DNA of 64,000 nucleotides from Tenacibaculum sp. Bg11-29. GTDB lineage: Bacteria > Bacteroidota > Bacteroidia > Flavobacteriales > Flavobacteriaceae. How positions within the stretch are numbered: position 1 is the stretch's first letter; each line of letters opens with the position of its first letter. The DNA lies in contig NZ_PJBB01000003.1 in NCBI RefSeq assembly GCF_002836595.1, positions 2,417,001-2,481,000 on the forward strand, read 5' to 3'. Under the pieces are notes generated by a model. It was not told where the DNA came from and searched no databases. It saw only the letters and a program-made list of their open reading frames with translations. The translations under genes and the position numbers were made by a program. Below, piece by piece: positions 33,103 through 57,522 of the stretch.

Positions 33103-33118
33103 TTTATTTAAAATAAAT
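33103..33118. promoter_or_regulatory. putative iron-responsive operator, DUF4856 promoter (distal)
   Basis: TTTATTTAAAATAAAT, member of a palindrome family repeated at promoters across the iron locus (see 34459, 49215, 57447). A second, 14/16 match in the other orientation ends at the start codon (33176-33191). A Fur-type regulator is assumed, not shown. Confidence 0.5.
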
Positions 33119-33151
33119 CCAAATAAAATTTGATAGATTAGATTTGTTACA

Positions 33152-33159
33152 TAGATTTG
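33152..33159 (+). promoter_or_regulatory. -7 element TAGATTTG for the DUF4856 gene
   Basis: Fits TAnnTTTG, 32 bases before the ATG at 33192. A second identical element lies at 33139-33146. The sequence from here to the ATG closely resembles the leader of the imelysin at 57430. Confidence 0.55.
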
Positions 33160-33191
33160 CATAAAATTTATTAAAATTAAATCTAAATAAA

Positions 33192-34391
33192 ATGAAGAAA
33201 GTTGTTTTTTCAATATTAGCTATTTCAGCTTTAGTATTTACATCTTGTTCTAGTGATGGAGATACTCCAATTAATAACGTTACTGCGCCAACAACATATA
33301 AGTTTGAAAGAAACGGAAACTCTTCGGTTAGTTTTTCAGGGCAAACAACGCGTATTAAAATGGCAACAGAGTTAACATCTGCATTAAAAGATGTAACTAA
33401 AACTGAAGTTGCGTTAAATGAAATGTTTGCACATACTGCGGGTAATGCAGATTTTTCTGATGCAGATTTAAATACTTCAAGTAAAAGTGTACGTAGTAAA
33501 GTTGCAGCATCTGTTGATTTTTTTGCTGCTAATACTACCGATGCAAATGCAATTAAGGCAAAATTTGATTCTTGGATAACAGAACAAGTAGCTGTTGTAT
33601 ATCCAAACTGGGCTTTTAATGCAGTTGCAGGAACAGCAGGGAAGTTAGAACAGAATAGTGGTACAGCAAGATACATTAATGGTAAAGGAGTAGAATTAAA
33701 TCAGATTTTTGCAAAAGGTTTAATAGGTGCTTTAATGGCTGATCAAATGTTAAATAACTATTTAAGTTTAGCAGTTTTAGATGCAGGTACAAATATAACA
33801 GATAATAATGCAGGTACTGTTGCTACAGGTAAAGACTACACTACAATGGAGCATAAATGGGATGAGGCTTATGGGTACTTGTATGGTACTGAAGTTAATC
33901 CAGAAGTTCCAGTTTTGGGTGCAGACAGTTTTTTAAATAAATATTTAGGAAAAGTTGAAGCAGATTCAGATTTTGCAGGTGTTGCAAAAAGTGTTTATGA
34001 TGCATTTAAGTTAGGTAGAGCAGCAATTGTAGCTAAAGATTATACATTACGTGATAAACAAGCAGAAATTATACGTGAAAAAATATCAGAAGTAATAGCA
34101 ATTAGAACAGTTCATTATTTACAAGCAGGTAAAACCTTATTAGCTACTGATAAAGCAGCAGCTTTTCATGATCTTTCAGAAGGTTTAGGATTTCTATATA
34201 GTTTACAATTTACACGTAAATCTAATAGTGCAAGCTCATATTTTACAAAAGTTGAGATTGATGGATATTTAAGTGATTTATTAGGTACAGGTAACGGATT
34301 GTGGGAAGCTTCTACCGTGGCTACATTAGATGCTGTTTCTAGTAAAATAGCAGCTAAGTTTAATTTTGTAGTAGCAGAAACTGTAAACTAA
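33192..34391 (+). CDS. DUF4856 lipoprotein
   Basis: 399 residues. Lipoprotein signal with lipobox VFTSCSSDG. The rest matches DUF4856: TYKFERNGNSSVSFSGQTTR near the start, HTAGNADFSD, and the conserved HKWDEAYGYLYGT. The family is Bacteroidota-typical, alpha-helical and often next to imelysins; the activity is unknown. The gene begins the iron locus, followed at once by an imelysin, an HTTM protein and a TonB receptor. Operator-like palindromes flank its promoter, and a hairpin terminator (34414-34446) runs directly into the promoter of the next gene. Confidence 0.88.
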   Translation: MKKVVFSILAISALVFTSCSSDGDTPINNVTAPTTYKFERNGNSSVSFSGQTTRIKMATELTSALKDVTKTEVALNEMFAHTAGNADFSDADLNTSSKSVRSKVAASVDFFAANTTDANAIKAKFDSWITEQVAVVYPNWAFNAVAGTAGKLEQNSGTARYINGKGVELNQIFAKGLIGALMADQMLNNYLSLAVLDAGTNITDNNAGTVATGKDYTTMEHKWDEAYGYLYGTEVNPEVPVLGADSFLNKYLGKVEADSDFAGVAKSVYDAFKLGRAAIVAKDYTLRDKQAEIIREKISEVIAIRTVHYLQAGKTLLATDKAAAFHDLSEGLGFLYSLQFTRKSNSASSYFTKVEIDGYLSDLLGTGNGLWEASTVATLDAVSSKIAAKFNFVVAETVN

Positions 34392-34413
34392 TTTTTAAAA
34401 AATATATTTTATT

Positions 34414-34446
34414 AAAAAGTAGCTGTCTTAAACAGCTACTTTTTTT
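34414..34446 (+). terminator. terminator after DUF4856 gene
   Basis: GTAGCTGT/ACAGCTAC, loop CTTAA, A5 before and T7 after. The last T is also the first base of the next -7 element. Confidence 0.85.
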
Positions 34447-34474
34447 ATATTTGCATACTTTATTTAGAATAAAT
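34446..34474 (+). promoter_or_regulatory. imelysin promoter with overlapping operator
   Basis: The -7 element TATATTTG (34446-34453) is followed at 34459-34474 by TTTATTTAGAATAAAT, placed over the expected transcription start. This is the position expected for a repressor site. The same 16-mer occurs inverted at 49215. Confidence 0.55.
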
Positions 34475-34487
34475 AGAAATAACAATT

Positions 34488-35597: not shown

Positions 35598-35612
35598 TAA
35601 AAGATAAAAAAT

Positions 35613-35642: not shown

Positions 35643-35648
35643 TAATTA

Positions 35649-37013
35649 ATGACCAAAGAAAAATATATAAAGAATCAAACAAATGCCGCTCCTCTAGCGG
35701 TTTTTCGTATTTTATTTGGTATAATGATGCTTGCCAGCATTATTAGATTTTGGTATCACGGGTGGATAGAAAAATTATACTTAGAACCTAAGTTTCACTT
35801 TACATATTATGGTTTTGAATGGGTACAACCAATAGGAACGTATACATACCTACTTTTTATTTTATGCGGTTTATCAGCAATATTTATAACGATAGGTTAC
35901 AAATATAGATTGGCAATTATTTTTTTCTTTTTAAGTTTCACTTACATTGAGTTAATGGATAAAACAACTTATTTAAACCATTATTATTTTATAAGTTTAT
36001 TAAGTTTTTTATTAATTTTTTTACCTGCAAATAAGTATTTTTCAGTAGACAGTTTTCTTTTAAAAAAAGAATTTAAAAATATTCCAAAATGGACAATCGA
36101 TAGTATAAAGCTCTTATTAGTAATTGTTTATTTTTATGCAGGATTGGCAAAGTTAAATTCCGATTGGTTATTTAGAGCAATGCCATTAAAAATATGGTTA
36201 CCATCAAAGTATGATATACCGTTTATAGGAAATAACGTAATGCAACAAGAATGGTTTCATTACGTAATGAGTTGGAATGGAGCGTTATATGATTTAAGTA
36301 TTCCTTTTTTATTATTATGGAAAAGAACACGCTTGTTGGCTTTTACATTAGTTGTATTTTTTCATGTATTTACTCGAATTTTATTTCCTATCGGAATGTT
36401 TCCGTTTATAATGATAATAGCAACACTCATTTTCTTTGAGGGTACATTTCACGAGAAAATAATCAATAACATAAAACGTGTTTTTAGATTACCCATAGAA
36501 AAAATACAAAGTATTGCTAATTACCAGTATTCAAATACAAAAAGAAAAACTATTACTGTAATAGTTGGTGTGTTTTTAATAATTCAACTTTTAATGCCTT
36601 GGCGATACTTATTATATCCTGGTGAGTTATTTTGGACAGAGGAAGGATATCGGTTTTCTTGGCGTGTAATGTTAATGGAAAAAGCAGGTTATGCAAGTTT
36701 TAAAATAGTAGATGGTAAAACAGGAAAGTTTTTTTATGTTGATAATACCGATTTTTTAACAACGTATCAAGAAAAACAAATGAGTTTTCAGCCCGATTTT
36801 ATTTTAGAATATGCACATTATTTAGGGGATCATTTTAAAAGAGACGGACATAAAAATATAGAAGTATATGTAGAGAGTTTTGTAGCATTAAATGGACGTT
36901 TAAGTGAATCGTATATAAATTCAAATATTGATTTATATCAACAAAAGGAAGGTTTTAAACATAAAAAATGGATATTACCTTTTACCAATAAAATTAAAAT
37001 TAATGGACTTTAA
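35649..37013 (+). CDS. HTTM-domain membrane protein (vitamin K-dependent gamma-carboxylase-like)
   Basis: 454 residues. The first 300 form an HTTM domain with several membrane segments: PLAVFRILFGIMMLASIIRF, the conserved DKTTYLNHYYFISLLSFLLI, and YFYAGLAKLNSDWLFRAMP, the region that carries the catalytic lysine in the human gamma-glutamyl carboxylase. A soluble C-terminal domain follows. Eukaryotic members carboxylate Glu to gamma-carboxyglutamate, a metal ligand; bacterial members are largely uncharacterised. The position between an imelysin and a TonB receptor inside an iron locus points to metal handling. Its stop overlaps the receptor start by 11 bp. Confidence 0.85.
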   Translation: MTKEKYIKNQTNAAPLAVFRILFGIMMLASIIRFWYHGWIEKLYLEPKFHFTYYGFEWVQPIGTYTYLLFILCGLSAIFITIGYKYRLAIIFFFLSFTYIELMDKTTYLNHYYFISLLSFLLIFLPANKYFSVDSFLLKKEFKNIPKWTIDSIKLLLVIVYFYAGLAKLNSDWLFRAMPLKIWLPSKYDIPFIGNNVMQQEWFHYVMSWNGALYDLSIPFLLLWKRTRLLAFTLVVFFHVFTRILFPIGMFPFIMIIATLIFFEGTFHEKIINNIKRVFRLPIEKIQSIANYQYSNTKRKTITVIVGVFLIIQLLMPWRYLLYPGELFWTEEGYRFSWRVMLMEKAGYASFKIVDGKTGKFFYVDNTDFLTTYQEKQMSFQPDFILEYAHYLGDHFKRDGHKNIEVYVESFVALNGRLSESYINSNIDLYQQKEGFKHKKWILPFTNKIKINGL

Positions 37014-39474
37014 AAATATGTTCAAATACAAGTGTAAGTACTCTAAATTTAATGAGAGTATATTAAAAATTTTAGCAATCGTATTTTTGCTGTTTTCTAC
37101 AACAATTTACGCGCAACATAAAGTATCTGGAGTTATAACTTCAGAAAAAAATGTGCCTTTAAATAAAGTTAATATTTATGCAAAATCAGGGAAATTACTT
37201 GCGGTAACAAATTCAAAAGGATTATACCAATACACTACAGATAAACAAAAATTTATTGTGGTTTTTTATGCGAATGAATTTCAGTTAAAAGAACAGGAAA
37301 TAGTTGTAAATAAAAGCCTTATTTTAAATATAAAGCTACAATCTTTTACTGAAGAACTAACTGAAATAGTAATAAAAGCACAACGAAGAAAGGTGTTTGA
37401 ATTAACACGTTTAAAAGATGTAGAACAAACTGCTATATTTGCGGGTAAAAAAAATGAAGTAGTTTTGGTAAGTGAAACTTCGGCTGCTTTAGCATCAAAT
37501 AATGCACGTCAAATTTATAGCCAAGTTGTGGGGTTAAATATTTTTCAAAACGACGATGCAGGTTTACAATTAAATATTGGTGGTCGTGGTTTAGACCCTA
37601 ACAGAACCTCTAATTTTAATACCCGTCAAAACGGTTACGATATTAGCGCAGATGTATTAGGGTATCCTGAGAGTTATTATACGCCTCCGGCAGAAGCATT
37701 AGAGAAAATTCAAATTGTTCGTGGTGCTGCTTCATTACAATATGGTACACAGTTTGGAGGTTTGGTAAACTTTGTTATGAAGAAACCAAATGCTAATAAA
37801 CCTTTAGAAATTATTACTAGAAATACTTTAGGAAGTAATAATTTATTTACCAATTTTACGAGCGTAAGCGGTACAAAAAATAAGTTTAGTTACTTTGCTT
37901 ATTATAATTATAAACAAGGAGATGGGTTTCGTCCAAACTCTGAATTTCACGCTAAAAATGCCTTTGCACATTTAGGATATGAATTTAACAATAGTACTAA
38001 ATTAGAAGCTGAAGTTACCTATTTAACATATCTCGCGCATCAAGGTGGTGGTTTAACAGACGCTATGTTTAATGAAAATCCATTACAAAGTAATAGAACT
38101 AGAAATTGGTTTGAAATAGATTGGTTGTTATATAATTTAAAATTATCACATAAATTTTCAGAGAATACCAATTTTACATTTAATTTATTTGGTTTAGATG
38201 CTGCTAGAAAGGCAATTGGTTATAGAACAAATCGTGTAGATCAAGAAGATGATAATAATGAACGTGATTTAATTACAGGTGATTTTAAAAATTTTGGATT
38301 TGAAACTCGTTTATTAAGTAAGTATACAGTTTTTAATAAAAAAGCTACTTTTTTAATAGGAACAAAATTTTATAAAGCTGAAAACACCTCTATACAAGGG
38401 CCTGGAACTAATGGAACTGATGCAAGTTTTTCTTCAGCTTTAGCTAGTTATCCGGATTATAAAAATCAATCTAATTATAAAAATCCGAATTTGAATATTG
38501 CTGTTTTTGGGGAAAACATATTCTATTTAAACGATAAATTTTCAATAACCCCAGGTTTTAGGTTTGAATATATAAAAACCGAAAGTGATGGTTTTTATAA
38601 AAAAATTAATAGAGATGGGGCTGGTAATGTTATTTTAAATGAAACAGACTATAGTAATGAAAGTAATCAACGTACTTTTTTATTGTTAGGCATAGGGGCT
38701 AGTTATAAACCAAATAGTAATTTGGAATTTTATGGAAATATATCTCAGAATTACCGTTCTGTAACATTTTCAGATTTGAATATAGTAAACCAATCTTTTA
38801 GTATAAATCCGTTAATTGGTGATGAAAAAGGATATACTTCTGATTTTGGAATGCGAGGAAATTACAAGCGTTTAATATCTTATGATCTAGGTGTTTTTGG
38901 GCTGTTTTATAATGATAGAATCGGTGTAATATCAAAAGGATTACCAGATGGGAGGGCTGTTTTAGAAAGAGGAAACGTCGGTAAAGCTCGTATTTTAGGT
39001 GTTGAGAGTTTGTTTGATTTTAATTTGAAAAAAATACTAGATATTAATAATGATTTTAGTTTTAATTATTTTGTTAACGCTTCGTTTATTAAATCGAAAT
39101 ATACTGAATCTCAGATCAATGGGGTTAAGGGCAATCAAGTAGAGTTTGTACCAGATTTTAATTTAAAAACAGGAGTAAAGTTTGGTTATAAAAACTTTTT
39201 AACCAGTTTTCAATATACATATTTAGGAGAGCAATTTACAGATGCCTCAAACTCTGTTATTTCTGGGTTTAGTGCTATTAATGGAGTGATTCCATCATAT
39301 AACGTATTAGACTTTTCTACATCTTATAAATACAAAATGTTTAAGATAGAAGCAGGTGTAAATAATTTACTTGACGAGAAGTATTTTACACGTAGAGCAA
39401 CTGGTTACCCAGGACCTGGAATTATACCTTCATCTTCAAGAAATTGGTATGTAACATTAGAATTTAAAATATAA
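37003..39474 (+). CDS. TonB-dependent outer membrane receptor (iron-type)
   Basis: About 823 residues from the ATG at 37003; a second ATG at 37018 is possible. The signal ends at IYAQ. A carboxypeptidase-regulatory-like domain (VSGVITSEKNVPLNKVNIYA) follows, then the plug (LQLNIGGRGLDPNRTSNF, EKIQIVRGAASLQYGTQFGG) and a 22-strand barrel ending NWYVTLEFKI. FecA-like features (RGLDPNRTSNFNTRQNGYDI) and the neighbouring ferric ABC transporter suggest uptake of a ferric chelate. It is coupled to the HTTM gene by overlap. Confidence 0.93.
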   Translation: MDFKNMFKYKCKYSKFNESILKILAIVFLLFSTTIYAQHKVSGVITSEKNVPLNKVNIYAKSGKLLAVTNSKGLYQYTTDKQKFIVVFYANEFQLKEQEIVVNKSLILNIKLQSFTEELTEIVIKAQRRKVFELTRLKDVEQTAIFAGKKNEVVLVSETSAALASNNARQIYSQVVGLNIFQNDDAGLQLNIGGRGLDPNRTSNFNTRQNGYDISADVLGYPESYYTPPAEALEKIQIVRGAASLQYGTQFGGLVNFVMKKPNANKPLEIITRNTLGSNNLFTNFTSVSGTKNKFSYFAYYNYKQGDGFRPNSEFHAKNAFAHLGYEFNNSTKLEAEVTYLTYLAHQGGGLTDAMFNENPLQSNRTRNWFEIDWLLYNLKLSHKFSENTNFTFNLFGLDAARKAIGYRTNRVDQEDDNNERDLITGDFKNFGFETRLLSKYTVFNKKATFLIGTKFYKAENTSIQGPGTNGTDASFSSALASYPDYKNQSNYKNPNLNIAVFGENIFYLNDKFSITPGFRFEYIKTESDGFYKKINRDGAGNVILNETDYSNESNQRTFLLLGIGASYKPNSNLEFYGNISQNYRSVTFSDLNIVNQSFSINPLIGDEKGYTSDFGMRGNYKRLISYDLGVFGLFYNDRIGVISKGLPDGRAVLERGNVGKARILGVESLFDFNLKKILDINNDFSFNYFVNASFIKSKYTESQINGVKGNQVEFVPDFNLKTGVKFGYKNFLTSFQYTYLGEQFTDASNSVISGFSAINGVIPSYNVLDFSTSYKYKMFKIEAGVNNLLDEKYFTRRATGYPGPGIIPSSSRNWYVTLEFKI

Positions 39475-39485
39475 ATTTCATTTAT

Positions 39486-39501
39486 TTTTATTCTAAATAG
39501 A
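39486..39501. promoter_or_regulatory. putative iron-responsive operator before the ferric SBP gene
   Basis: Minus strand TCTATTTAGAATAAAA, 14/16 match to the palindrome at 34459. It lies 55 bases before the ATG at 39556. No clear -7 element is seen. Confidence 0.45.
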
Positions 39502-43370: not shown

Positions 43371-44255
43371 TTAAAAAATAGTATCTAAATTAAATAAAGC
43401 AAAAAACTCATGAGTTCCGCTTTGATAAGGGCTTATTTTATTTGTATACATACTATAACTATAACCTAAGTCAATCCATTCTGTAGTAGTTATTTTACCG
43501 TTTATTTGAATAGAATTATTAAATGAATAAGAAAACCCTAGATTATATTTTTCTTTGATTTCTAAATCTGTATTTAAATCAAAAACTAATGGAGTACCTT
43601 GTACAATTGTAATTAGGGTAGACGGGGTTAGCTTTAAATAATCATTCAACTTAATAATATAACCACCTCCTATGTTCATATTTAATTTTTTTTCCTTTTT
43701 AGAGTTATTAAGTTCCTTATAACGATCATCAATTAACAAAGTATTTATTGTTGTATGGATATAATAATTTTCATGTATTAATGCAGTACCGATAGAGAAG
43801 TTAGGACTAAATGTATTAATAGATTCAGCAAAAAAAGCATCATTATTTACTTCAGTTTTAATAGTATTAAAATCTCCACTATATAAATTTGCTTGGCCTC
43901 TAATACCAAATAGTAAATTATGATTATCACTTACTTTTAACTTATAAGAAGCGTCTAAAGAAATTTGTGTTTGGTTAAAAATAAAGACTTTATCATTAAT
44001 AATATTTAATCCTGCCCCAACATGTTCGTTCAAAGGAATATTTAAAGAAATTGTATTCGTTTTAGGTGCATCAGGAATTCCAACCCATTGACTTTTAGAA
44101 TTTATAAGTATTGATGTATGGTTTTTTTGACCTGCAAAAGCAGGATTTATTAAGTTTAAGTTATAATTATATAAAGAATAACTTACCTTATTTTGAGAGA
44201 AAGCACAAAAATTAAGAATTAAAGTACTTATCAGTAATGTTTTTTGAAATGACAT
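43371..44255 (-). CDS. PorP/SprF-family outer membrane protein
   Basis: About 294 residues from ATG 44255 (MSFQKTLLISTLILNFCAFS, signal peptide). PorP/SprF family: YNYNLNLINPAFAGQKNH near the N-terminus is the family hallmark, followed by a 14-strand-like beta barrel. SprF-type proteins assist secretion or surface attachment of a partner carrying a type-B T9SS C-terminal domain. The partner is the gene 11 bp upstream in the operon (44267-45553). Confidence 0.9.
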   Translation of the reverse strand: MSFQKTLLISTLILNFCAFSQNKVSYSLYNYNLNLINPAFAGQKNHTSILINSKSQWVGIPDAPKTNTISLNIPLNEHVGAGLNIINDKVFIFNQTQISLDASYKLKVSDNHNLLFGIRGQANLYSGDFNTIKTEVNNDAFFAESINTFSPNFSIGTALIHENYYIHTTINTLLIDDRYKELNNSKKEKKLNMNIGGGYIIKLNDYLKLTPSTLITIVQGTPLVFDLNTDLEIKEKYNLGFSYSFNNSIQINGKITTTEWIDLGYSYSMYTNKISPYQSGTHEFFALFNLDTIF

Positions 44256-44266
44256 TTTTTTATTTT

Positions 44267-45553: not shown

Positions 45554-45570
45554 TGTTAAATATTTATTTG

Positions 45571-46494: not shown

Positions 46495-46496
46495 GT

Positions 46497-47318
46497 TTAA
46501 TAGTTAATATAAACCCAGCCTTTAAAAAAATTATTGCTAGGGTTGTTTAATTTTAATATGTAATAATAAGGACCTGGAGGAAGTTTAGTATTTTTATTAA
46601 TGATTAAGTTTGAATTTGCTATACCATCCCAATCGTTGTTATATGGAGATGCTTCATATACTTTATTCCCATGTCTATTAAATACAAGAAGATTATTTTT
46701 AGGATATTTTTTTAATAAACTAGAGGTAATTATCCAAGTATCATTAACCTGATCATTATTAGGAGAAAATCCATTTGTTATTTCAATACTTTCAATAATT
46801 TTTACAGTAGCTTTACTATTACTTTTGCAATTGTTTTTTGAACTTACAGTATATGTATAAAGGTTGTTTTTGTTTTTTGTCCAAATGCCATCTTTATCAG
46901 GGGTTCCACCTAAAGCACTAAATAATTCCTCTTGAGTAGGTGTAAGTCCTTTTATAATTTCTAGATAGCCATCTAATCCAGCGTTTGGTTTGGTTATAAT
47001 AATAACATCAATTTCCGCTTTATCATCACACCCATTGTTATTTATAATCAAGATATAAATACCTGCCATTTCTGTAGAAACATTGGTGCGAACTAAATCA
47101 ATTGTACTTATTATTTTTTTGTCAGGAGTAAACCATTGATAATTAGCGCCTAAATAAAAATGAGCAGTAAGTGCTAAATTTTCTCCTTCACAAATGGTGA
47201 CTTCTGTTAAACTATTTTGATGTTTATCTAAATCATTTATCGTATAAATTTTATTTGCGGCATATGATGTACTAAAATGTAATATTACTAAAAGAATAAA
47301 GAATATTTTTTTAACCAT
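46497..47318 (-). CDS. short T9SS-secreted protein with gliding-motility-type C-terminal domain
   Basis: 273 residues from MVKKIFFILLVILHFS (ATG 47318; an ATG three codons earlier is possible). One Ig/PKD-like domain near residues 35-110 (VTICEGENLALTAHFYLGAN), a linker with FSALGGTPDKDGIWTKNKNN, then the type-B CTD (ITNGFSPNNDQVNDTWIITS, ending GWVYINY). It is tiny compared with SprB-type adhesins. It forms a pair with the following PorP/SprF gene. Confidence 0.87.
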   Translation of the reverse strand: MVKKIFFILLVILHFSTSYAANKIYTINDLDKHQNSLTEVTICEGENLALTAHFYLGANYQWFTPDKKIISTIDLVRTNVSTEMAGIYILIINNNGCDDKAEIDVIIITKPNAGLDGYLEIIKGLTPTQEELFSALGGTPDKDGIWTKNKNNLYTYTVSSKNNCKSNSKATVKIIESIEITNGFSPNNDQVNDTWIITSSLLKKYPKNNLLVFNRHGNKVYEASPYNNDWDGIANSNLIINKNTKLPPGPYYYILKLNNPSNNFFKGWVYINY

Positions 47319-47339
47319 TAGAATCAATTTTAATAAAAA

Positions 47340-47370
47340 GCCACGAGGTGAAAATGGCCTCGTGGCTTTA
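47340..47370 (-). terminator. hairpin within the T9SS operon
   Basis: GCCACGAGG/CCTCGTGGC with a 9-base loop, A-run on one side and T-run on the other. It lies between the 47374 gene and the 46497 gene, so the four downstream genes may be read at a lower level or from another promoter. Confidence 0.8.
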
Positions 47371-47373
47371 AAA

Positions 47374-48201
47374 TTATTTTAGTTTAATAATTGCTTTGGG
47401 GCTCGGTAGCATCACATCATTTTGAAAAGATGCCGAGTTATTAGATTGACAGGTTCCTTTTTTAGCGATTACAGTATATGAAGTTCCAATAACCATGTTT
47501 TGAATTTCACCAGTAGCATTAACAGTAGGTCCTATGGGAGTAAAAACGTAAGTAACAGTAGCATCATAATTATCAATTTGATTAGCACCATCATCAGCAC
47601 AAGAAGCAGGTGTATTGTTTAACGTTGGTAAGTTAGGAGTTGGTAACATTGCGTCATTTTTAATAGTAACTGAATTATTAGATTGACATGTTAATTTTTC
47701 AGCTATTACAGTATATGACGTTCCAATAACCATATTTTGAATTTCACCAGTAGCATTAACAGTAGCTCCTGTAGGAGTAAAAACGTAAGTTACAGTAGCG
47801 TCATAATTTGTAATTTTACTAGTACCATCAGAAGCACAATAAGCAGGTGTGTTGTTTAATATTGGTGTATCAAGAGCTTCGTTTATTTTGACAAGAATAT
47901 CAACCGTATTTAAACAACCATTTTTCGTTACTGTTAAGGTGTATGTTCCTGCATCAGATAAAGTAACATTATTTATAATTAAATCTATAGTATTTGATTT
48001 TACAACAGCTCCTCTAGTCCATTCATAAGTTGCTCCAATTCCAGCATCTTCTGCTGTAAGTTCTAAGTTTTCATTTTCACATAGTGTAATTTTTGGTAAA
48101 GAAGGAGGGGGGATAGTTGTTTTTGATACAGCTGTGTTGTTTCCTAGAATAGCAAGGCAACAGAATAATAATAGGGTAGTTGATAATAATTTTTTTATCA
48201 T
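47374..48201 (-). CDS. secreted Ig-like/tandem-repeat protein without CTD
   Basis: 275 residues with a signal peptide (AILGNN). An Ig-like domain (ITLCENENLELTAEDAGIGA, YTLTVTKNGCLN) is followed by two near-identical units of about 78 residues, each with YDATVTYVFTP and GEIQNMVIGTSYTVIA. It has no T9SS C-terminal domain, so it ends like an internal part of a longer adhesin. It may be an accessory protein, or the truncated front part of a former fusion. Confidence 0.75.
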   Translation of the reverse strand: MIKKLLSTTLLLFCCLAILGNNTAVSKTTIPPPSLPKITLCENENLELTAEDAGIGATYEWTRGAVVKSNTIDLIINNVTLSDAGTYTLTVTKNGCLNTVDILVKINEALDTPILNNTPAYCASDGTSKITNYDATVTYVFTPTGATVNATGEIQNMVIGTSYTVIAEKLTCQSNNSVTIKNDAMLPTPNLPTLNNTPASCADDGANQIDNYDATVTYVFTPIGPTVNATGEIQNMVIGTSYTVIAKKGTCQSNNSASFQNDVMLPSPKAIIKLK

Positions 48202-48209
48202 TTTAATAG

Positions 48210-49151
48210 TTATTTATTTTTAATAGATGCGTTTGGAGGAGTAGAAATAGAAAGCGTAAAATCAGTATTACTAGAGCCGTCAGAGTTTGTTGCAGTTAGT
48301 GTTAGTATTACACTTCCATTCGTTTCATCAAGAGTACTTGGTGTATAGGTAGGATTTCTAATCTGATTATTATTAAATATTCCAGTACCTGATGTAGTCC
48401 ATATTAATATAGGCTTAGGAGTTATTGGAATAACTTGAACCTTGGTAAAACTATAAGAATTTCCTCTGCATATGTTTTTGTCCAATTCCATTGTTATTTC
48501 TGGAGGTAAGCCCAATGGAGAAAATTTAAAATATGTAATAGGCAAAGTTTTATCTATATAACCCGTAGAATTAATTTTAAGACTTAATTTATATTGCGAA
48601 TGAGAAACTTTATTATTGCCATGATTATCCCATAAAAAAGGAATGCTTCCAAACATGGAGACACTCGTACCAGATTCATTTTCAAAATAAATTAATAAAT
48701 TTTTAGTTCCTGAATAAGTAAAAGGGTTTGTAAGTGTTATTATATTTTTATTAGCAGATAAGTTTGAACCTCTTTTCCAAGTAATATCGCCATCATAAAC
48801 TTTGGTAAAAGTTGAAGTATCAGGAATATTTACGCTCGTAATTTCATTTTGATTAGTTTCTTTAACATAAATTCTTTGAGAGCTAAGAGTAGTATATATT
48901 TTGGTACTTCCACAATCAATATAAAAACCTAAATCAGTTAAACTTCCATTTACAAAATTCAAATCTTCTTTTGTATAGAGAAGTAAAGACCAGCTATTAT
49001 TTTTTCCTCCATTCCATGAACCATTATCGTATTTAGCTGGAATTGATTGAGTTATAGAAGATCCGCATTTGGCAGTCCCAATAATGACTTCTTGGGCTTT
49101 GGAGATAATTGAGTATAAGATAATTATAGGTAATAAAAATTGTTTTTTCAT
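48210..49151 (-). CDS. secreted protein, paralogue of the 44267 N-terminal domain
   Basis: 313 residues with signal peptide (IISKAQ). Residues 20-210 match the N-terminal domain of the 44267 protein: EVIIGTAKCGSSITQSIPAK, FTKVYDGDITWKRGSNLSAN, KNLLIYFENESG. A further Ig-like segment (about 215-305) follows. There is no C-terminal sorting domain. First gene of the leftward operon, with a promoter at 49202 and an operator-like site just behind it. Confidence 0.75.
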   Translation of the reverse strand: MKKQFLLPIIILYSIISKAQEVIIGTAKCGSSITQSIPAKYDNGSWNGGKNNSWSLLLYTKEDLNFVNGSLTDLGFYIDCGSTKIYTTLSSQRIYVKETNQNEITSVNIPDTSTFTKVYDGDITWKRGSNLSANKNIITLTNPFTYSGTKNLLIYFENESGTSVSMFGSIPFLWDNHGNNKVSHSQYKLSLKINSTGYIDKTLPITYFKFSPLGLPPEITMELDKNICRGNSYSFTKVQVIPITPKPILIWTTSGTGIFNNNQIRNPTYTPSTLDETNGSVILTLTATNSDGSSNTDFTLSISTPPNASIKNK

Positions 49152-49201
49152 TTACAAGTATATTAAATTAGACTAATTAAAAATTAATGTTAAATTTTCG
49201 A

Positions 49202-49209
49202 CAAACTTA
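49202..49209 (-). promoter_or_regulatory. -7 element TAAGTTTG of the T9SS operon
   Basis: Reverse complement of CAAACTTA, fits TAnnTTTG, about 50 bases before the start codon at 49151. Confidence 0.55.
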
Positions 49210-49214
49210 TGTTT

Positions 49215-49230
49215 ATTTATTCTAAATAAA
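49215..49230. promoter_or_regulatory. putative iron-responsive operator between divergent operons
   Basis: ATTTATTCTAAATAAA is the exact reverse complement of the 16-mer at 34459-34474. It lies between the two divergent -7 elements (49202-49209 minus, 49234-49241 plus) and would cover the -33 regions of both promoters. One bound repressor could thus control both operons. Confidence 0.55.
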
Positions 49231-49233
49231 TAT

Positions 49234-49241
49234 TAGTTTTG
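49234..49241 (+). promoter_or_regulatory. -7 element TAGTTTTG of the thioredoxin-ApbE operon
   Basis: Fits TAnnTTTG, 17 bases before the ATG at 49259. Confidence 0.55.
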
Positions 49242-49258: not shown

Positions 49259-49699
49259 ATGAATAAAATTATATTTTTGACTTTTGTTTTAGTAGGAGTA
49301 ACAATTGTAAAAGCTCAAGAGTCAAAAAATGTTACGTGGTTTACAAATATCGAAGAGGCTCAAAAAATGGCGAAGGAAAAGAATAAAAAAGTATTCGTGT
49401 ACTTTTCTGGCTCTGATTGGTGTAAACCTTGTAAAGAATTAAAAAATGAAGTTTTATCTTCTGAGGAATTTAAGAAAAAAGCATTTTTAGAATATGTTTT
49501 AGTAAATATAGACTTCCCTCGTAATAGAAGAAAATTAACGAAAGAGCGTATTAATTACATAGAAGAATCAGCTGAAAAATATAATAATTTAGGTGCTTTC
49601 CCTTTTGTTGCTATTTTAAGTGATAAGGCATTAGTTATTAATACGGTAGATGGTTATAAAAGCGAAACGGCTGCATACTACATCGAAAATTATTTATAA
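49259..49699 (+). CDS. exported thioredoxin-like protein
   Basis: 146 residues with signal peptide (VKAQES). Thioredoxin fold with active site SDWCKPCKEL near residue 60 and the cis-Pro segment GAFPFVAIL. It probably reduces or forms disulfides or metal-binding thiols in the periplasm for the Cys-containing products of this operon. It is the first gene of the thioredoxin, ApbE, DUF4266, DUF3570, lipoprotein, beta-barrel operon; the ApbE gene starts 2 bp after its stop. Confidence 0.88.
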   Translation: MNKIIFLTFVLVGVTIVKAQESKNVTWFTNIEEAQKMAKEKNKKVFVYFSGSDWCKPCKELKNEVLSSEEFKKKAFLEYVLVNIDFPRNRRKLTKERINYIEESAEKYNNLGAFPFVAILSDKALVINTVDGYKSETAAYYIENYL

Positions 49700-49701
49700 T
49701 A

Positions 49702-50679
49702 ATGATAAGAAAATATTGTTCATTATTGTTCATTATTCTTTCTATTTCTTTAACAGGACAAGAGTTATACAAAGAAAAATTGCTTTTAATGGGAGTCGAT
49801 TTTGAATTTACTGTTGTAACGGAAACTAAAGATGAAGCTGCTTTTTTTGTAAAAGAAGCGATTAAAGAAACAGTACGAATAGAAGATTTAATATCATCAT
49901 GGAAATTAACATCTCAAACTTCAAAAATAACAAAAAATGCAGGGATAAAGCCTGTAAAAGTAAGTCGTGAATTAGTTGATTTAATTCAACGAAGTAAGAG
50001 AATATCTAAGTTAACGAATGGATGTTTTGATATTAGTTTTGCTTCGTTAGATAAATTTTGGTACTTCAATAAACCAATGAAAAATTTACCAGACAGTCTG
50101 CTTATTTTAAACTCTGTTAAAAAAATTGATTATAGAAATATTATAATCAATGAAGAAAAAAGTACCGTGTTTTTATTAAAGAGAGGAATGAGAATTGGTT
50201 TTGGATCTATTGGTAAAGGTTATGTCGCAGAAAAAGTAAAAGAGAAATTAAAAAAGATAGGAGTAAAAGCTGGTTTAGTGAATGCAGGTGGAGATTTAAC
50301 GACTTGGGGTAATCATCCAATAACCAAAAAATGGGTTATAAAAATCGCAGACCCTAATAAAGTATTAAATAACATTGGTTCATTTAAATTACATAATAAT
50401 TCTGTAGTAACTTCAGGTAATTATGCGAAATATATACAATTTAATGGTATTAAATATTCGCATATAATTAACCCTAAAACAGGTTGGCCTGTTAGAGGTG
50501 TAAAAAGTGTAACTATTTTTTGTGAAAATACCGAGTTAGGAGATGCTTTAGCAACATCAGTTTACATTATGGGAAAAGAAAAAGGGCTTGATTTAATAAA
50601 TAAATTAAGAGGGGTAGAATGCTTACTGATTACTAATAAAAATAAAATACTTAAATCAAATAATTTAAAATTAAACTAA
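49702..50679 (+). CDS. apbE: FAD:protein FMN transferase
   Basis: 325 residues. N-terminal export signal (ISLTGQE). ApbE domain with RMRIGFGSIGKGYVAEKV-type segment, VNAGGDLTTWG (FAD-binding), and the metal/catalytic region YSHIINPKTGWPVRG and GDALATSVYIMG. ApbE proteins attach FMN to Ser/Thr of secreted or membrane electron-transfer proteins. No target with the classical flavinylation motif is obvious among the neighbours. Linkage of ApbE with DUF4266 and DUF3570 genes recurs in Bacteroidota and proteobacteria. Confidence 0.93.
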   Translation: MIRKYCSLLFIILSISLTGQELYKEKLLLMGVDFEFTVVTETKDEAAFFVKEAIKETVRIEDLISSWKLTSQTSKITKNAGIKPVKVSRELVDLIQRSKRISKLTNGCFDISFASLDKFWYFNKPMKNLPDSLLILNSVKKIDYRNIIINEEKSTVFLLKRGMRIGFGSIGKGYVAEKVKEKLKKIGVKAGLVNAGGDLTTWGNHPITKKWVIKIADPNKVLNNIGSFKLHNNSVVTSGNYAKYIQFNGIKYSHIINPKTGWPVRGVKSVTIFCENTELGDALATSVYIMGKEKGLDLINKLRGVECLLITNKNKILKSNNLKLN

Positions 50680-50682
50680 AAT

Positions 50683-50895
50683 ATGATAAAAAAAACATTT
50701 ATGATTTTACTTATCGCAATCATTTTTTCAAATTGTGCAAGTGTAAAACCATATCAAAAAATGTATTTAAATGATGAAGATATGGCATTATCATCGAGAA
50801 AAATTGAACAGTATGAGATAAGTTCACAAAATTATAGAGAAGGAGCGTCAGGTGCTAACGGAGGTAAATCGGGAGGAGGATGTGGATGCAACTAA
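50683..50895 (+). CDS. DUF4266 small lipoprotein
   Basis: 70 residues. Lipobox at FSNCASV. The family pattern is plain: SVKPYQKMYLNDEDM, then SSQNYREGASGANGGKSGGG and the C-terminal Cys-Gly-Cys-Asn. The Gly/Ser-rich tail ending in two cysteines is suited to metal binding or covalent modification. Its last 16 bases overlap the DUF3570 gene, so both are made together. Confidence 0.9.
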   Translation: MIKKTFMILLIAIIFSNCASVKPYQKMYLNDEDMALSSRKIEQYEISSQNYREGASGANGGKSGGGCGCN

Positions 50896-52364
50896 ATACT
50901 AAAATATTCATTGTTTTACTTTTTTTATTAAACATAAAAATTTTTTCACAAAAAAAAATAAAACAACTAGAAAAGGTTCAGGTAGATATTCTTTATAATT
51001 ATTATGAACAAGAAGGTAATAATGCAGCGGTAACCGGCGGTTTTGGTACCGAAAAATTAGATAATAACGCACCACAAATATCTGTTTCAATACCTGTAAA
51101 TAAAACAGCAACTTTTGGTGTAACTTTAGGATTAGATCACTATACCTCGGCTAGTACTGGAAATATTGATAAATATGGTGCAATAACCTCAGCAAGTACA
51201 AGTACAAGTACAGCTGCAACTTCAGAGGCTAATTTAGCAAGTGAAGATACCCGAAAATATTTATCATTAAATTTTAGTCGATTATTGGCAGATAATAATT
51301 CAGCAGTTTCTATTTTATATGGTTATTCGAAAGAGTTCGATGTTACTTCAAATTATGGTAAAATTACATGGCAAAAAGATTCTAAAGATGGAAATAAATT
51401 TTTAAGCATTAATGTTGGAATCTTTATAGATAAATGGCTTTTAATTTACCCAGGAGAAATTAGAGATGGAAGAAATACAGGAGCAGGCGGAGGAAACGGA
51501 TATGACGACGACGATGATGACCATGATGACGATGACGACGATGATGACCATGATGATGATGATGACGATGACGACGATGATGACCATGACGATGACGACG
51601 ACGATGATGATCATGATGACGATGACGATGATCGTCCTGTAAATCTGAATTATAGTGCTAGAGATGATGACGACGATGATGAGTATGAAAATCAAAAAGC
51701 AACTACTTTTAAGGGGTACGATAAGGATACTCGATTTACTTATAACATAGGTGCTACTTATGGAGGCACTATAAATAGAAGGTTAAATGCTTCTGTAACA
51801 GCTGAGGTAATAATTCAGAAAGGAATTTTAAACACTCCTTTTCATAGAGTTTATTTTAAAGATGGAATTTTTCAAGAGAAATTTAAAGTGGTAAAAAGCG
51901 AAAGATTACCCAAATCAAGAATAAAAAAAGCTCTTGGTTTTAGAGCAAATTATTTTATTAGTGATTTTATGATAACACGTTTGTTTTATAGATGGTATAG
52001 TGATGATTTTGGAGTAACAGGGAATACTTTTGAAATTGAGACACCTATAAAATTGGGTGATGGTTTTACATTATACCCTTTTTATCGTTTTCATACACAA
52101 ACAAAATCAATGTATTTTCAACCATATGGAGGACATAATTTAGATGCTAATTATTATACTTCAGATTATGATTTAGCTAAGTTTACCACAAATAAATTTG
52201 GAATAGGAATGAAGTTTTCCCCAGTAAACGGTGTATTAAGTTTTAAAATAAATAAGAAAAGAGAATTTCAGTTCAAGTCGTTAGAATTCCGGTTTTCTAG
52301 TTTTGAAAGATCTACAGGTTTAAAATCTACTTCTATAACACTAAGTAATACGTTTACTTTTTAA
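50880..52364 (+). CDS. DUF3570 outer membrane protein with poly-Asp/His tract
   Basis: 494 residues. Signal peptide (KIFSQ). DUF3570 beta-barrel features: VQVDILYNYYEQEGNNAAVT at the start, VSIPVNKTATFGVTLGLDHY, and strands to the C-terminal Phe. Inserted at about residues 209-251 is D6-H-D8-H-D11-H-D8-H-D6, with a second Asp6 run shortly after, most likely in an extracellular or periplasmic loop. It is a strong candidate metal-binding module. The family has no established function; the ApbE and DUF4266 linkage suggests a role in surface electron transfer or metal uptake. Confidence 0.9.
   Translation: MWMQLNTKIFIVLLFLLNIKIFSQKKIKQLEKVQVDILYNYYEQEGNNAAVTGGFGTEKLDNNAPQISVSIPVNKTATFGVTLGLDHYTSASTGNIDKYGAITSASTSTSTAATSEANLASEDTRKYLSLNFSRLLADNNSAVSILYGYSKEFDVTSNYGKITWQKDSKDGNKFLSINVGIFIDKWLLIYPGEIRDGRNTGAGGGNGYDDDDDDHDDDDDDDDHDDDDDDDDDDDHDDDDDDDDHDDDDDDRPVNLNYSARDDDDDDEYENQKATTFKGYDKDTRFTYNIGATYGGTINRRLNASVTAEVIIQKGILNTPFHRVYFKDGIFQEKFKVVKSERLPKSRIKKALGFRANYFISDFMITRLFYRWYSDDFGVTGNTFEIETPIKLGDGFTLYPFYRFHTQTKSMYFQPYGGHNLDANYYTSDYDLAKFTTNKFGIGMKFSPVNGVLSFKINKKREFQFKSLEFRFSSFERSTGLKSTSITLSNTFTF
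51504..51632 (+). repeat. GAY-codon tandem repeat encoding the Asp/His tract
   Basis: 43 consecutive codons of GAT/GAC broken by four CAT codons spaced 9, 12 and 9 codons apart. Units of about 27 bp beginning GATGACCAT recur, so the tract probably changes length by slippage or unequal recombination. A second six-Asp run is at 51663-51680. Confidence 0.9.
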
Positions 52365-53661: not shown

Positions 53662-54723
53662 TTAATCACCATCATTATCTGTTGGAAGTACAGTAACAGA
53701 TAAAGTACTTGTTATATCTACAGAGAATAGTATACTTAAGTCTTTTAAGTTATTGTAAATAGGTCTTACACTTTCTGGATTGGTACTTATTGCTTCAAAA
53801 AGTGTACTATTTAAAGTAGTAATCTCTTGTTCAATATTACTAAACTTTATAGCTATTTCATTTGAAATTTCTTCTGAAGTATTAATCGCATTTACCATGG
53901 TTGCGAAATTAGTAGTACTGTTAAAGTAAAGATTTTTAACCTCAGCTAACATTGCTTGTATTAATAGTAAAGAGTTTTTACTTCTATAGGCTTGTAAGTT
54001 TGTAGGAACAGTATTGTTAGATTTTTCAAAACCAGCTGTTTTTCCAATTTTAGTAACTTTGGCTACATCTAACACGTTAATTATTTGATTTATACTTAAA
54101 CATTTAGCGTTATTTGTACAAATAGAACCATTGGCAGCTATAAAGGTGTCTTTATAACCGTTTTCCCAGGTGTCAATGATTGTATTAGAAAGTCTAATAA
54201 GTTCTTGGTTAACACCAGCTAGATAAGCTATTCTATACGAATCGTTTAATAAAAGTGTTTTAGCCTCTATAGAATTTTGATTGCTAAAAAGTAAATATTC
54301 TATAGTAGCAAGCCCTTTTACAGTAGTACTTTGTGTTGAAAAATATGACTCGTTATAAACAGTTTTATCTATAATATTTTTTTCAATAGAACTTATGTTT
54401 ACAGGGTAGTTATAAATGCTTATGTTATAAAAATTTTCTTTAATTACTCCTAAATTATAAATTTCATATTTTGAATATGCTTTTGCAGAAGTTAACCATT
54501 GAGAAAGTAATTTTTCATAATCTTCATCACTTTTTGATGCTTGAAAATTTGTAATATTGGTCTGTTGGGTTTCTAGAGCTATTTTTAAGTTCTTTATACT
54601 TGGTAAGATATTGTCTGAGTAATAAGTTTCAAAAAAAGCATTATTCATTACAGGCTCTTCATCTTCACTTTTACAAGTAATTATAGCAGTTAGTATAATT
54701 ATTCCTAATAATATTTTTTTCAT
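53662..54723 (-). CDS. imelysin-family lipoprotein
   Basis: 353 residues. Lipobox at AIITCKSE. Imelysin fold with paired helices (DEDYEKLLSQWLTSAKAYSK). The GxHxxE motif position reads KGLATIEYLLFSN: Glu kept, His replaced. C-terminus ends DNDGD as in the imelysin at 34488, so these two are the closer pair. Last gene of the operon with the di-heme oxidoreductase and the canonical imelysin; the same trio occurs in proteobacterial IcmP loci, which are iron-regulated. Confidence 0.9.
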   Translation of the reverse strand: MKKILLGIIILTAIITCKSEDEEPVMNNAFFETYYSDNILPSIKNLKIALETQQTNITNFQASKSDEDYEKLLSQWLTSAKAYSKYEIYNLGVIKENFYNISIYNYPVNISSIEKNIIDKTVYNESYFSTQSTTVKGLATIEYLLFSNQNSIEAKTLLLNDSYRIAYLAGVNQELIRLSNTIIDTWENGYKDTFIAANGSICTNNAKCLSINQIINVLDVAKVTKIGKTAGFEKSNNTVPTNLQAYRSKNSLLLIQAMLAEVKNLYFNSTTNFATMVNAINTSEEISNEIAIKFSNIEQEITTLNSTLFEAISTNPESVRPIYNNLKDLSILFSVDITSTLSVTVLPTDNDGD

Positions 54724-54724
54724 T

Positions 54725-56134
54725 TTATAAAGAGTTTAAGTATTGTAATAATTCTTCTCGTTCAGTTTTTGTTTTTTGTTTAAAACTTTCTTTTGAGCTT
54801 TCTGCTTCACCATTATGCCATAAAATAGCTTCTTCTATGTTTCTAGCTCTACCGTCGTGTAGTAAAAACGTGTGCCCATTTACAGCTTCAATAAGTCCTA
54901 ACCCCCATAAAGGTTGTGTTCTCCATTCATTACCGTTAGCTAAAAAATCAGCTCTGTTGTCAGCTAATTCATCACCCATGTCATGAAGTAAAAAGTCAGA
55001 AAATGGGCTTATTTTAATATTATTTATCTGTGATAAAATTTCATTAGCACCTGTTGTAAAATTATCTACGTGACAAGAAACACATTTTAAATCTCTAAAA
55101 TGTTTCTTTCCTTTAAGTACAGCTTCTTCTTTGTAATTTCTTCTCTTTGGTACAGATATAGCAGCCATGTATAATGCTATTCGGCTAAATTGTTTATCTG
55201 GTACTTCAACATTTTCTCCTGGGTTATTACCATTAAATAACTGTGAGCAATCTACCCCGTCAGGACAATTTTCATCTGGAAAAATTGATGTTGTTAAGCC
55301 CATATCTCCATTAAAAGCTCCTGCTACTTGTTGGTTTAGAGTGGGCTGGTTTGATTTCCATCCAAATTTACCTATAGTAAGCTTATCTTTTTTAACATTC
55401 CAAACATAATTTGCTCTTCCAGAAATCCCATCGTTATTAGTATCATTGGGGTCAGCATTTTCTAAAATACTAGCTTCAGAAAGGGCGTCTATAAAACCAA
55501 GACCAATTAATTGTTGCCCTATTCTTGGAGATGTTTGTACGCCAACTAGACTACCGTAATTTTCATTGATAATTGTATAGTTTGGTTTTCTTAATTCATA
55601 AGTACTACCATCAGCATACGTACCTTTTATATACGAAAAAACTACTTGAATACTAGCTTCTTTTTTAAGGCCTAAGTTAGACCTGTCTTGTAACTGTCCT
55701 CCATATGTTCCATGGCCAATTGGCCCTGTAGTAACTGAGTTTCCAGTACTTAAGCGGATTAATAAACCTTTTGAACTGGCACCTGTTTCTAAAATTGGCT
55801 CACCTCTTCCATCATTTAAATGACAAGCACTACATGCTCTTGCATTAAAAATAGGACCTAAACCATCTCTAGAAGTTGTGGTGGCAGGAGACGAAACCCA
55901 ACTTTGGTTAAACATTGCATCACCAATACCAAAAAAAGAGGATTGTAAATTAGATAAAGAAGGAATACCTCTACCAAAGGCTTTATCAGCATTAAAAGCC
56001 TCTATAGATAACTCTGAAACTAAGTTTTCTTCTCCTAATTCGTATTCAAATTCAACAGGTTTATATACATCATCATCTTTAGAGCAAGATATTAATATAA
56101 ATAATATGGTAATAAAAAAAATATTATTTTTCAT
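54725..56134 (-). CDS. di-heme oxidoreductase (DUF1111, cytochrome c peroxidase-like) lipoprotein
   Basis: 469 residues. Lipobox at LISCSKD. Two c-type heme sites: CSACHLNDGRG near residue 99 and CVSCHVDNFTTG near residue 353. Family segments FNQSWVSSPATTTSRDGLGP, GRANYVWN and LLHDGRARNIEEAILWHNGE are typical. It likely performs redox chemistry on iron (or thiols) at the cell surface beside the imelysins. It ends 1 bp before the next imelysin gene. Confidence 0.92.
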   Translation of the reverse strand: MKNNIFFITILFILISCSKDDDVYKPVEFEYELGEENLVSELSIEAFNADKAFGRGIPSLSNLQSSFFGIGDAMFNQSWVSSPATTTSRDGLGPIFNARACSACHLNDGRGEPILETGASSKGLLIRLSTGNSVTTGPIGHGTYGGQLQDRSNLGLKKEASIQVVFSYIKGTYADGSTYELRKPNYTIINENYGSLVGVQTSPRIGQQLIGLGFIDALSEASILENADPNDTNNDGISGRANYVWNVKKDKLTIGKFGWKSNQPTLNQQVAGAFNGDMGLTTSIFPDENCPDGVDCSQLFNGNNPGENVEVPDKQFSRIALYMAAISVPKRRNYKEEAVLKGKKHFRDLKCVSCHVDNFTTGANEILSQINNIKISPFSDFLLHDMGDELADNRADFLANGNEWRTQPLWGLGLIEAVNGHTFLLHDGRARNIEEAILWHNGEAESSKESFKQKTKTEREELLQYLNSL

Positions 56135-56153
56135 GTAAATATTGTAAACAATA

Positions 56154-56186
56154 AAACTGAAACTAGAGAATTTCTAGTTTCAGTTT
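56154..56186 (-). terminator. hairpin between imelysin and di-heme oxidoreductase
   Basis: Perfect 14-bp stem AAACTGAAACTAGA/TCTAGTTTCAGTTT, loop of 5. In the leftward reading it is followed by TATTG, so it may reduce expression of the two downstream genes or protect the first mRNA. Confidence 0.7.
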
Positions 56187-56209
56187 CTTAATTAAATATA
56201 TAAGTTATA

Positions 56210-57430
56210 TTAGTCTATCGTAATACTAACTCCTAATGTAGTCGCAACTTCAGCAATAGCAACTCCTTGAGATTTTAAAGCATTTGATAGTTGTATCGCT
56301 GGTCCATTACTAGTAAGCGTTTCTTGAGAAATAATTTCATCAAAAGTTTTATTTAATGCTAAAAGAGCATCTAACTTATTTAAAGTTGTTTGTGCTTTCG
56401 TTTCTAAGTTAGTAGAAATCTCTATGTTTAAAGTTTTGGTTATAGCAGTTAAAGAAACTCCTGATATTTTTGTTCCATCGGCTCTTTTATAAGAACCAAT
56501 AATTACATTGTTAATTCCATTAACGTTAGCCCACATATCTTGATTCGTATTGTCAGAAAAACAAGAATGTTCATTTTCTTGACCTTCTTCTACAGCTGGT
56601 ATAATTCTTTCTAAAGCAATTTCTCCGTTAGAAATAAAACCAACACCATTTAAAATATTTTTTAAAGCAGTAGCTTCATTTAATTTAGCAAATGCTGTTC
56701 TGTATAAGCCTCCAATAGCCCAAGTATTTCTTAAATCGTTTAAATCATTAATTAATAAATTAGTTACAATTTGTAAATACTGTTTTCTTCTTTCAGCAAA
56801 ATTTGCAGTTGTATAATCAGTATAACCTCTTTGACCAGCAGCTGCATAATTATCTTGTTTATGCGTAGTTGGGTTGTAATTTAAATCTTGCCCCCATAAT
56901 AAAAACTCAATGGCATGCCATCCAGTAGCAACATTATCTGCCAAGTTGTTAAATTCATTTTTCCCTATAATACTTGCTTCAGTTAAAGCAAAATTAGCAT
57001 CACCAATTAAACCATTTTGTACTGCACCTCCTTTGTTATCAGAAACATAATCGATAAAACCTTCATCTAAAGGCCATGCATTAATACGACCTTCAGTATT
57101 TAATATACCGTCAATAGACCCTAAGTCTTCATTATCTATAGGACCATTAGCAGCACGAAAAGCTTCTGTTTGTCCGTAAAAATCTCTTGCATACAACCAA
57201 GCATTTTGCGCAGCTTTATGTGTTTCTTCAGTTGGTGTCGCTAAAAAAGCATCAATTTTTGTTTTCATTGTCGCTGCTGTAGTGTATGCATCATCATAAT
57301 TAGCGGCAGCAATGTTCGCATAGTTTTCTATAAACTTAGCTTTTGTAGGTGTATCTTTAATGTTTTCGTTGTCATCTGAACATGATGTCATAGCAATAGC
57401 TACTAAACATAATCCTAATATTTTCTTCAT
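56210..57430 (-). CDS. imelysin-family lipoprotein with intact GxHxxE motif
   Basis: 406 residues. Lipobox at AMTSCSDD. The imelysin metal motif is present in ATGWHAIEFLLWGQDLN (about residue 168), as in ICMP and IrpA. FRAANGPIDNEDLGSIDGIL and YRTAFAKLNEATALKNILNG are other family segments. It is the lead gene of the imelysin, di-heme oxidoreductase, imelysin operon and is preceded by two copies of the iron-type palindrome. A surface iron (or other metal) binding role is the usual view. Confidence 0.93.
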   Translation of the reverse strand: MKKILGLCLVAIAMTSCSDDNENIKDTPTKAKFIENYANIAAANYDDAYTTAATMKTKIDAFLATPTEETHKAAQNAWLYARDFYGQTEAFRAANGPIDNEDLGSIDGILNTEGRINAWPLDEGFIDYVSDNKGGAVQNGLIGDANFALTEASIIGKNEFNNLADNVATGWHAIEFLLWGQDLNYNPTTHKQDNYAAAGQRGYTDYTTANFAERRKQYLQIVTNLLINDLNDLRNTWAIGGLYRTAFAKLNEATALKNILNGVGFISNGEIALERIIPAVEEGQENEHSCFSDNTNQDMWANVNGINNVIIGSYKRADGTKISGVSLTAITKTLNIEISTNLETKAQTTLNKLDALLALNKTFDEIISQETLTSNGPAIQLSNALKSQGVAIAEVATTLGVSITID

Positions 57431-57446
57431 TACTTGTTTATTTAGA

Positions 57447-57472
57447 TTTATTTAAAATAAAGTGCAAATATA
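57447..57472 (-). promoter_or_regulatory. imelysin promoter with operator overlapping the start site
   Basis: Minus-strand -7 TATATTTG (57465-57472) followed by the palindrome TTTATTTAAAATAAAG (57447-57462). This arrangement matches that at 34446-34474. Confidence 0.55.
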
Positions 57473-57506
57473 TTTTAGTTTTTTCATTATTCAAAGGTTA
57501 TTTAGA

Positions 57507-57522
57507 CTTATTTAAAATAAAG
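57507..57522. promoter_or_regulatory. second operator copy upstream of the imelysin operon
   Basis: CTTATTTAAAATAAAG, with the same flank TTATTTAGA as the proximal copy; the two 25-bp units are about 60 bp apart. Rest of the 332-bp gap 57431-57762: only the guaB promoter. Confidence 0.5.

Follow-up and report, generated by a model that had tools for sequence, protein, structure and literature searches.

Between 33 and 58 kb of a 64,000-nucleotide stretch of the Tenacibaculum sp. Bg11-29 genome (contig NZ_PJBB01000003.1, positions 2,417,001 to 2,481,000 of the forward strand; hereafter the window, in whose numbering the features are given) lies a cluster of genes that includes a DUF4856 gene, imelysin genes and a TonB-dependent receptor gene, and whose promoters carry a repeated palindrome. 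Judged by its sequence, this palindrome is very probably a Fur operator of a kind already described in a related bacterium. Sites mark no fewer than five promoters that lie close together and serve genes mostly linked to iron; two of these promoters have paired sites. It follows that the four transcription units counted in a preliminary description of this DNA were too few. The features are listed below, with scores in bits from a matrix of published Riemerella anatipestifer Fur boxes; all boxes are predictions.

33103..33127 (19-bp core 33106-33124): upstream Fur operator of the DUF4856 gene, predicted; 14.1 bits, conserved; its centre lies 37 bp ahead of the -7 element
33152..33159, plus strand: -7 element of the DUF4856 promoter, TAGATTTG; a further TAGATTTG at 33139
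33170..33188: downstream Fur box of the DUF4856 gene, predicted; 14.1 bits; its centre lies 27 bp beyond the -7 element
33192..34391, plus strand: DUF4856 lipoprotein-like gene (Pfam PF16148)
34446..34453, plus strand: -7 element of the internal imelysin promoter, TATATTTG
34462..34480: internal imelysin promoter, predicted Fur box covering its start; 14.5 bits
34488..35597, plus strand: imelysin (Peptidase_M75) gene 1 (Pfam)
35649..37013, plus strand: HTTM / gamma-carboxylase-like gene (Pfam)
36928..39474, plus strand: TonB-dependent receptor gene (Pfam)
39480..39498: predicted Fur box preceding the ABC importer; 16.0 bits
39556..43321, plus strand: ABC importer, with binding protein 39556-40587, permease 40981-42597 and ATPase 42605-43321 (Pfam, NCBIfam)
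43371..49151, minus strand: divergent type IX-linked run of six genes, namely a protein of no family, Ig-like, CHU_C, PorP/SprF, CHU_C and PorP/SprF (Pfam-type family matches)
49166..49184: predicted Fur box between the divergent units; 14.1 bits; 34 bp after a minus-strand TAAGTTTG at 49209-49202
49209..49227: weaker predicted Fur box (the 49215 site of the preliminary description); 10.9-11.4 bits; 16 bp before TAGTTTTG at 49234-49241
49259..52364, plus strand: Trx-ApbE unit, with Trx 49259-49699, ApbE 49702-50679, a lipoprotein-like open reading frame of 70 amino acids 50683-50895 and DUF3570 50880-52364
53662..57430, minus strand: imelysin-DHOR-imelysin unit, with imelysin 56210-57430, DHOR (which we take to be equivalent to DUF1111) 54725-56134 and imelysin 53662-54723 (Pfam)
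57440..57458: imelysin-DHOR promoter, predicted downstream Fur box; 14.9 bits; 23 bp after a minus-strand TATATTTG (57472-57465)
57500..57518: imelysin-DHOR promoter, predicted upstream Fur box; 15.8 bits; 37 bp before TATATTTG
57645..57663: third candidate box, between imelysin and IMP dehydrogenase; 13.7 bits

TAnnTTTG elements accompany the boxes at 33106, 33170, 34462, 49166, 49209, 57440 and 57500; box 39480 has none within 75 bp on the plus strand, and for box 57645 the nearest is distant (64 bp). Boxes 49166 and 49209 may serve both the Trx-ApbE unit and the divergent type IX-linked run. All controlled genes had at first been called plausible iron genes, which holds for most of them, but the "ferric" label given to the ABC transporter was not established: every NCBIfam match of the importer lies below cut-off, the best being 2-aminoethylphosphonate and thiamine binding proteins. 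As a separate observation, the DUF3570 protein (50880-52364) has a long Asp and His run.

Sequence of the probable operator and recurrence against chance

All seven places at which the preliminary description had reported a 16-mer do carry it, with zero to two mismatches to TTTATTTARAATAAAT: none at 33103, 34459 and 49215 (minus strand), one at 57447, and two at 39486 (minus strand), 57507 and 33176 (minus strand, given as a 14/16 match). The term "near-identical" is generous for 39486 and 57507. In an alignment of 70 DUF4856 promoters, about 25 conserved bases (TTTATTTAAATTTAATCTAAATAAA) are followed by CTTTG in the -33 region and then by 19 bases leading to TAnnTTTGC. The 16-mer makes up one half of this palindromic operator of about 25 bp, and the matches at 57437 and 57447 are therefore the two sides of one site. 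As had been proposed, the sites at 34459 and 57447 lie over the expected transcription start, following TATATTTG at 34446-34453 and, on the minus strand, at 57472-57465, respectively. The 19-bp core of the operator corresponds to the Fur box ATTTAGAATTATTCTAAAT of R. anatipestifer, whose purified Fur bound four promoters in gel shifts (PMC5609570).

The matrix was built from ten of the eleven boxes in Table 5 of that report, with no window sequence used; the sprT box (RAYM_03924) was left out because it is unlike the other ten, though Fur bound the sprT promoter in the gel shifts reported there. Scanned in this way, the window holds nine sites of at least 13 bits, all intergenic and eight of them within 33-58 kb; the eight cluster sites and a site at 1434 rank as the top nine, the 49209 box ranks twelfth, and two boxes overlooked in the preliminary description come to light (49166-49184 and 57645-57663). 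Matrix sites of this strength number 8 in 33-58 kb against 12 in twenty control stretches that together cover 400 kb of this genome, eight of these 12 being intergenic; 0.75 would be expected in 25 kb (Poisson p 1.3e-6). The exact 15-mer TTTATTTARAATAAA occurs at eight places in the 4.54-Mb genome, four of them in the window and all four of these intergenic (binomial p 2.6e-6), and the published box at up to three mismatches occurs at 34 distinct places (40 rows, places counted by hand), five of them in the window (p 1.1e-4). At up to three mismatches, the 16-mer gives 72 matches in the window against 51.6 +/- 8.0 in shuffles, a count reached in 0/100 shuffles, so only the best 16-mer matches stand out.

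A chance origin from A+T-rich palindromes would be in keeping with the loose matches, which are roughly as frequent as those of reversed-pattern controls, and with three of the four copies of TTTATTTARAATAAA outside the window, of which two lie within genes and one overlaps a gene end; the fourth precedes a Cys-rich open reading frame of 62 amino acids. Such an origin is contradicted by the eight sites found where 0.75 are expected and by the conservation of boxes at fixed positions across relatives, described below; the sites are real, and chance is an extremely unlikely explanation, excluded for the DUF4856 and imelysin-DHOR promoters in a way that does not extend to the sites at 1434 and 57645.

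Two further sites are recorded in their own right. The Cys-rich open reading frame (L037 1554-1742) has no Pfam family, and TAnnTTTG lies 17 bp after the centre of its TTTATTTARAATAAA box. In the window, a 14-bit Fur-type site at 1434-1452 stands directly upstream of a LysR-type gene (500-1417, minus strand), with no TAnnTTTG within 75 bp.

Paired boxes and their conservation in relatives

Upstream regions of DUF4856 genes (150 bp, threshold 13 bits) were scored in 80 named loci, the best 80 of 354 relatives; two of the 80 rows carry no label in the gene-label counts. A site is present in 77/80 loci, as against 24/552 other gene starts and 2/400 shuffles, and two boxes of at least 10 bits are present in 72/80 of these regions, as against 12/551 other starts and 0/400 shuffles. 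The two boxes bracket TAnnTTTG in 70 rows, one from the window and the others from 69 named loci, the centre of the upstream box lying 36-38 bp before it in 69/70 and that of the downstream box 23-27 bp after it in 15 rows, 29-30 bp in 6 and 32-37 bp in 49. The window's own upstream/downstream distances are 37/27 at the DUF4856 promoter and 37/23 at the imelysin-DHOR promoter. Since the -7 element spans -12 to -5 (PMC9723704), the box centres would fall near -49 and +12 to +26.

The imelysin gene at 56210-57430 has a site in 8/8 loci, its own and those of seven relatives, one from another family; five weak rows, whose best match was not an imelysin-DHOR gene, were excluded. The internal site of imelysin gene 1 reaches 13 bits in 19/79 named loci, several of which have the identical sequence at the identical place, and no site of at least 13 bits precedes the HTTM (0/75), TonB receptor (0/80), HMGL-like (0/53) or IMP dehydrogenase (0/40) genes of the named loci. 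Searched as an exact consensus, the operator is found in 40 rows from 24/59 genomes, as against 0 rows for the reversed control; by hand count, 34 distinct places lie behind these rows, and 27 were examined, plus three of this genome. In relatives, the genes behind them include those for FeoA, FTR1, SufB, NqrA and TonB receptors as well as for Sdh_cyt, PepSY and Porin_O_P proteins. In this genome, sites stand before an AraC-type gene, before genes for TonB receptors and before a SufA-like gene. The 37-bp position recurs in 10/27 exact-consensus loci, seven of them not DUF4856.

We propose that Flavobacteriaceae Fur uses a dedicated operator pair at the DUF4856 and imelysin-DHOR promoters, with the upstream box fixed some 37 bp ahead of the -7 element and the downstream box beyond the start, so that polymerase is excluded more tightly than by a single box, and that promoters of TonB-receptor and porin genes follow the same arrangement, making it a rule of iron control throughout the family; we consider the case for and against this proposal evenly balanced. 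Literature searches, which did not cover most subscription papers, returned no printed description of paired boxes that we recognised. The spacing between the two boxes in DUF4856 promoters peaks at 60-64 and 71-73 bp, values that differ by roughly one helical turn, and the tree implies no fewer than 18 changes of spacing class. Helical phasing is nonetheless not claimed, because spacings of 66-67 bp are also found and an exploratory test, its offsets entered by hand, gave p = 0.28 on 20 distinct offsets.

Two observations concern individual loci. Before an AraC-type regulator gene of this genome (L034, G000:C3 ~429.1 kb), two boxes 64 bp apart surround TAnnTTTG at 37/27, as at the window's DUF4856 gene. 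An exact-consensus box also lies close upstream of a gene for a protein of 114-117 amino acids in four genomes (L033, L218, L220, L227), with a weak DUF6686 match in L218 and no family in L033.

The regulator and its known counterparts

This genome encodes two FUR-family proteins, and FUR-family relatives read similar A+T-rich palindromes, so that another member of the family, Zur- or PerR-like and for example the second protein (L032), might be thought to read the boxes. The genes downstream of the boxes are, on the contrary, iron genes, and six relatives that have a DUF4856 gene but only one FUR-family protein (G005, G008, G018, G028 and G035, each 99% complete, and G032, 75%) keep a box of at least 16 bits before that gene in 6/6 cases, which points to the other protein, a Fur encoded beside purA; a Zur- or PerR-like reader is very improbable. 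This purA-linked Fur (G000:C3:2271047-2271406) is the stronger match of the two. Adjacency to purA is found in 28/30 related FUR loci examined and has been reported for fur of Flavobacterium psychrophilum, a species in which efforts to delete fur did not succeed (PMC9331221). The protein carries HDH, an instance of the HxH iron-sensing motif described in PMC4222909, and the closest proteins of known structure are Fur proteins.

The Fur-type regulon put forward in the preliminary description is thus supported by the match to a published box, by conservation before the same genes in Flavobacteriaceae, by the classical iron genes behind the sites in relatives and by the single-FUR genomes, and the palindromes are most likely the operators at which purA-linked Fur would repress these promoters under iron. 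When iron is plentiful, iron-loaded Fur would bind the boxes and keep RNA polymerase off the promoters of the DUF4856-imelysin-HTTM-TonB receptor run, the internal imelysin gene, the ABC importer, the Trx-ApbE-DUF3570 unit and the imelysin-DHOR-imelysin unit; when iron is scarce, it would release them. At the DUF4856 and imelysin-DHOR promoters, one box stands just upstream of the -33 element and the other beyond the transcription start, and polymerase might be blocked from both sides, with any cooperation between boxes equally conjectural.

The nearest known system is the Fur regulon of R. anatipestifer, where Table 4 of PMC5609570 lists a TonB receptor (RAYM_09779), a vitamin K-dependent gamma-carboxylase (09784), an imelysin (09789) and a hypothetical protein (09794) as Fur-regulated under iron restriction. 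The DUF4856-imelysin-HTTM-TonB run of the window matches these four genes, 09794 being presumably DUF4856. The two systems share the identical type of 19-bp palindrome and this gene run; they differ in that the report assigns a single box to each gene it covers and has no box for this run, whereas here boxes are mapped and paired, and the four promoters bound in its gel shifts are not those of the matching run (PMC5609570).

Several results weigh against the purA-linked Fur as repressor of the whole cluster. It falls below every NCBIfam equivalog cut-off, and in the genome set that includes the six single-FUR relatives 2/17 DUF4856 loci (G040, G053) lack the box that 15/17 have. The box before the ABC binding protein, a weaker part of the reading, is kept in 4/11 named loci. 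The Trx-ApbE unit has no box in L091, L092, L094 and L198; it has a 12.6-bit site in L099 and boxes of 11.4 and 9.0 bits at near-equal spacing in the close relative L089 (L090 was not scored at the Trx start), so that the unit may belong to the regulon as its weaker part, backed by one close relative. Genome-wide, loose matches at up to three mismatches scarcely exceed the reversed control (40 vs 33), and the degenerate consensus at two mismatches falls below it (72 vs 76); most loose matches are thus background, and a genome-wide regulon drawn from such patterns was rejected. In Riemerella, Table 5 of PMC5609570 gives no box for the four matching genes, and the sprT promoter, bound in the gel shift, has a listed box off consensus. 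The same four genes are up just 1.36-1.93-fold in the fur mutant with iron and keep an iron response of about 2.7-3.1-fold in that mutant (PMC5609570, Table 4).

This persistence makes a second iron input likely in Riemerella, and it holds back our confidence in Fur. Another iron-responsive regulator could accordingly act alongside Fur or in its place. One candidate is MliR, a MerR-like activator in Bizionia argentinensis, loss of which lowers expression of a TonB receptor for siderophores and of an imelysin-like gene (PMC9478572). Set against MliR are the match of the sites to the published Fur box and a 17.4-bit Fur-type site at the DUF4856 locus of B. argentinensis itself; in what was available of PMC9478572 we found no binding motif to compare with the sites. 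We judge such a regulator unlikely, although it may act jointly with Fur, and retain purA-linked Fur.

The observation is real, and the Fur regulon that it supports is of a known kind. In Pseudomonas aeruginosa, PA4370-PA4372 form a Fur-regulated operon of an imelysin, a DUF1111/di-haem protein and a second imelysin (PMC3143127), the order seen in the window (Pfam); here the promoter is flavobacterial, with two boxes of another sequence. The E. coli-type box GATAATGATAATCATTATC, quoted in PMC5609570, is likewise an A+T-rich 19-bp palindrome over iron-gene promoters and differs in sequence, the window boxes ending in ATTTAGA...TCTAAAT. PMC5609570 was the only paper printing a flavobacterial Fur-box sequence found in the searches; the present analysis gives the family a Fur-box consensus and a promoter geometry.

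The DUF4856 protein and its gene neighbourhood

The regulon would link the uncharacterised DUF4856, the HTTM gene and perhaps the type IX-linked run to iron supply. The name DUF4856 was not found in the papers listed by one of the searches. The protein (33192-34391) yields a confident all-helical model (predicted local distance difference test, pLDDT, 91) for which Foldseek gives no PDB match at E <= 0.001; a relation to imelysin was not shown, and an HxxE-like stretch is a lead. It is 95% identical to its Tenacibaculum ovolyticum counterpart. The close relative G018 (the L089 locus) retains the greater part of the stretch between DUF4856 and DUF3570, the type IX-linked run included, with the order of HTTM and receptor genes swapped, extra genes inserted and the imelysin-DHOR unit on another contig.

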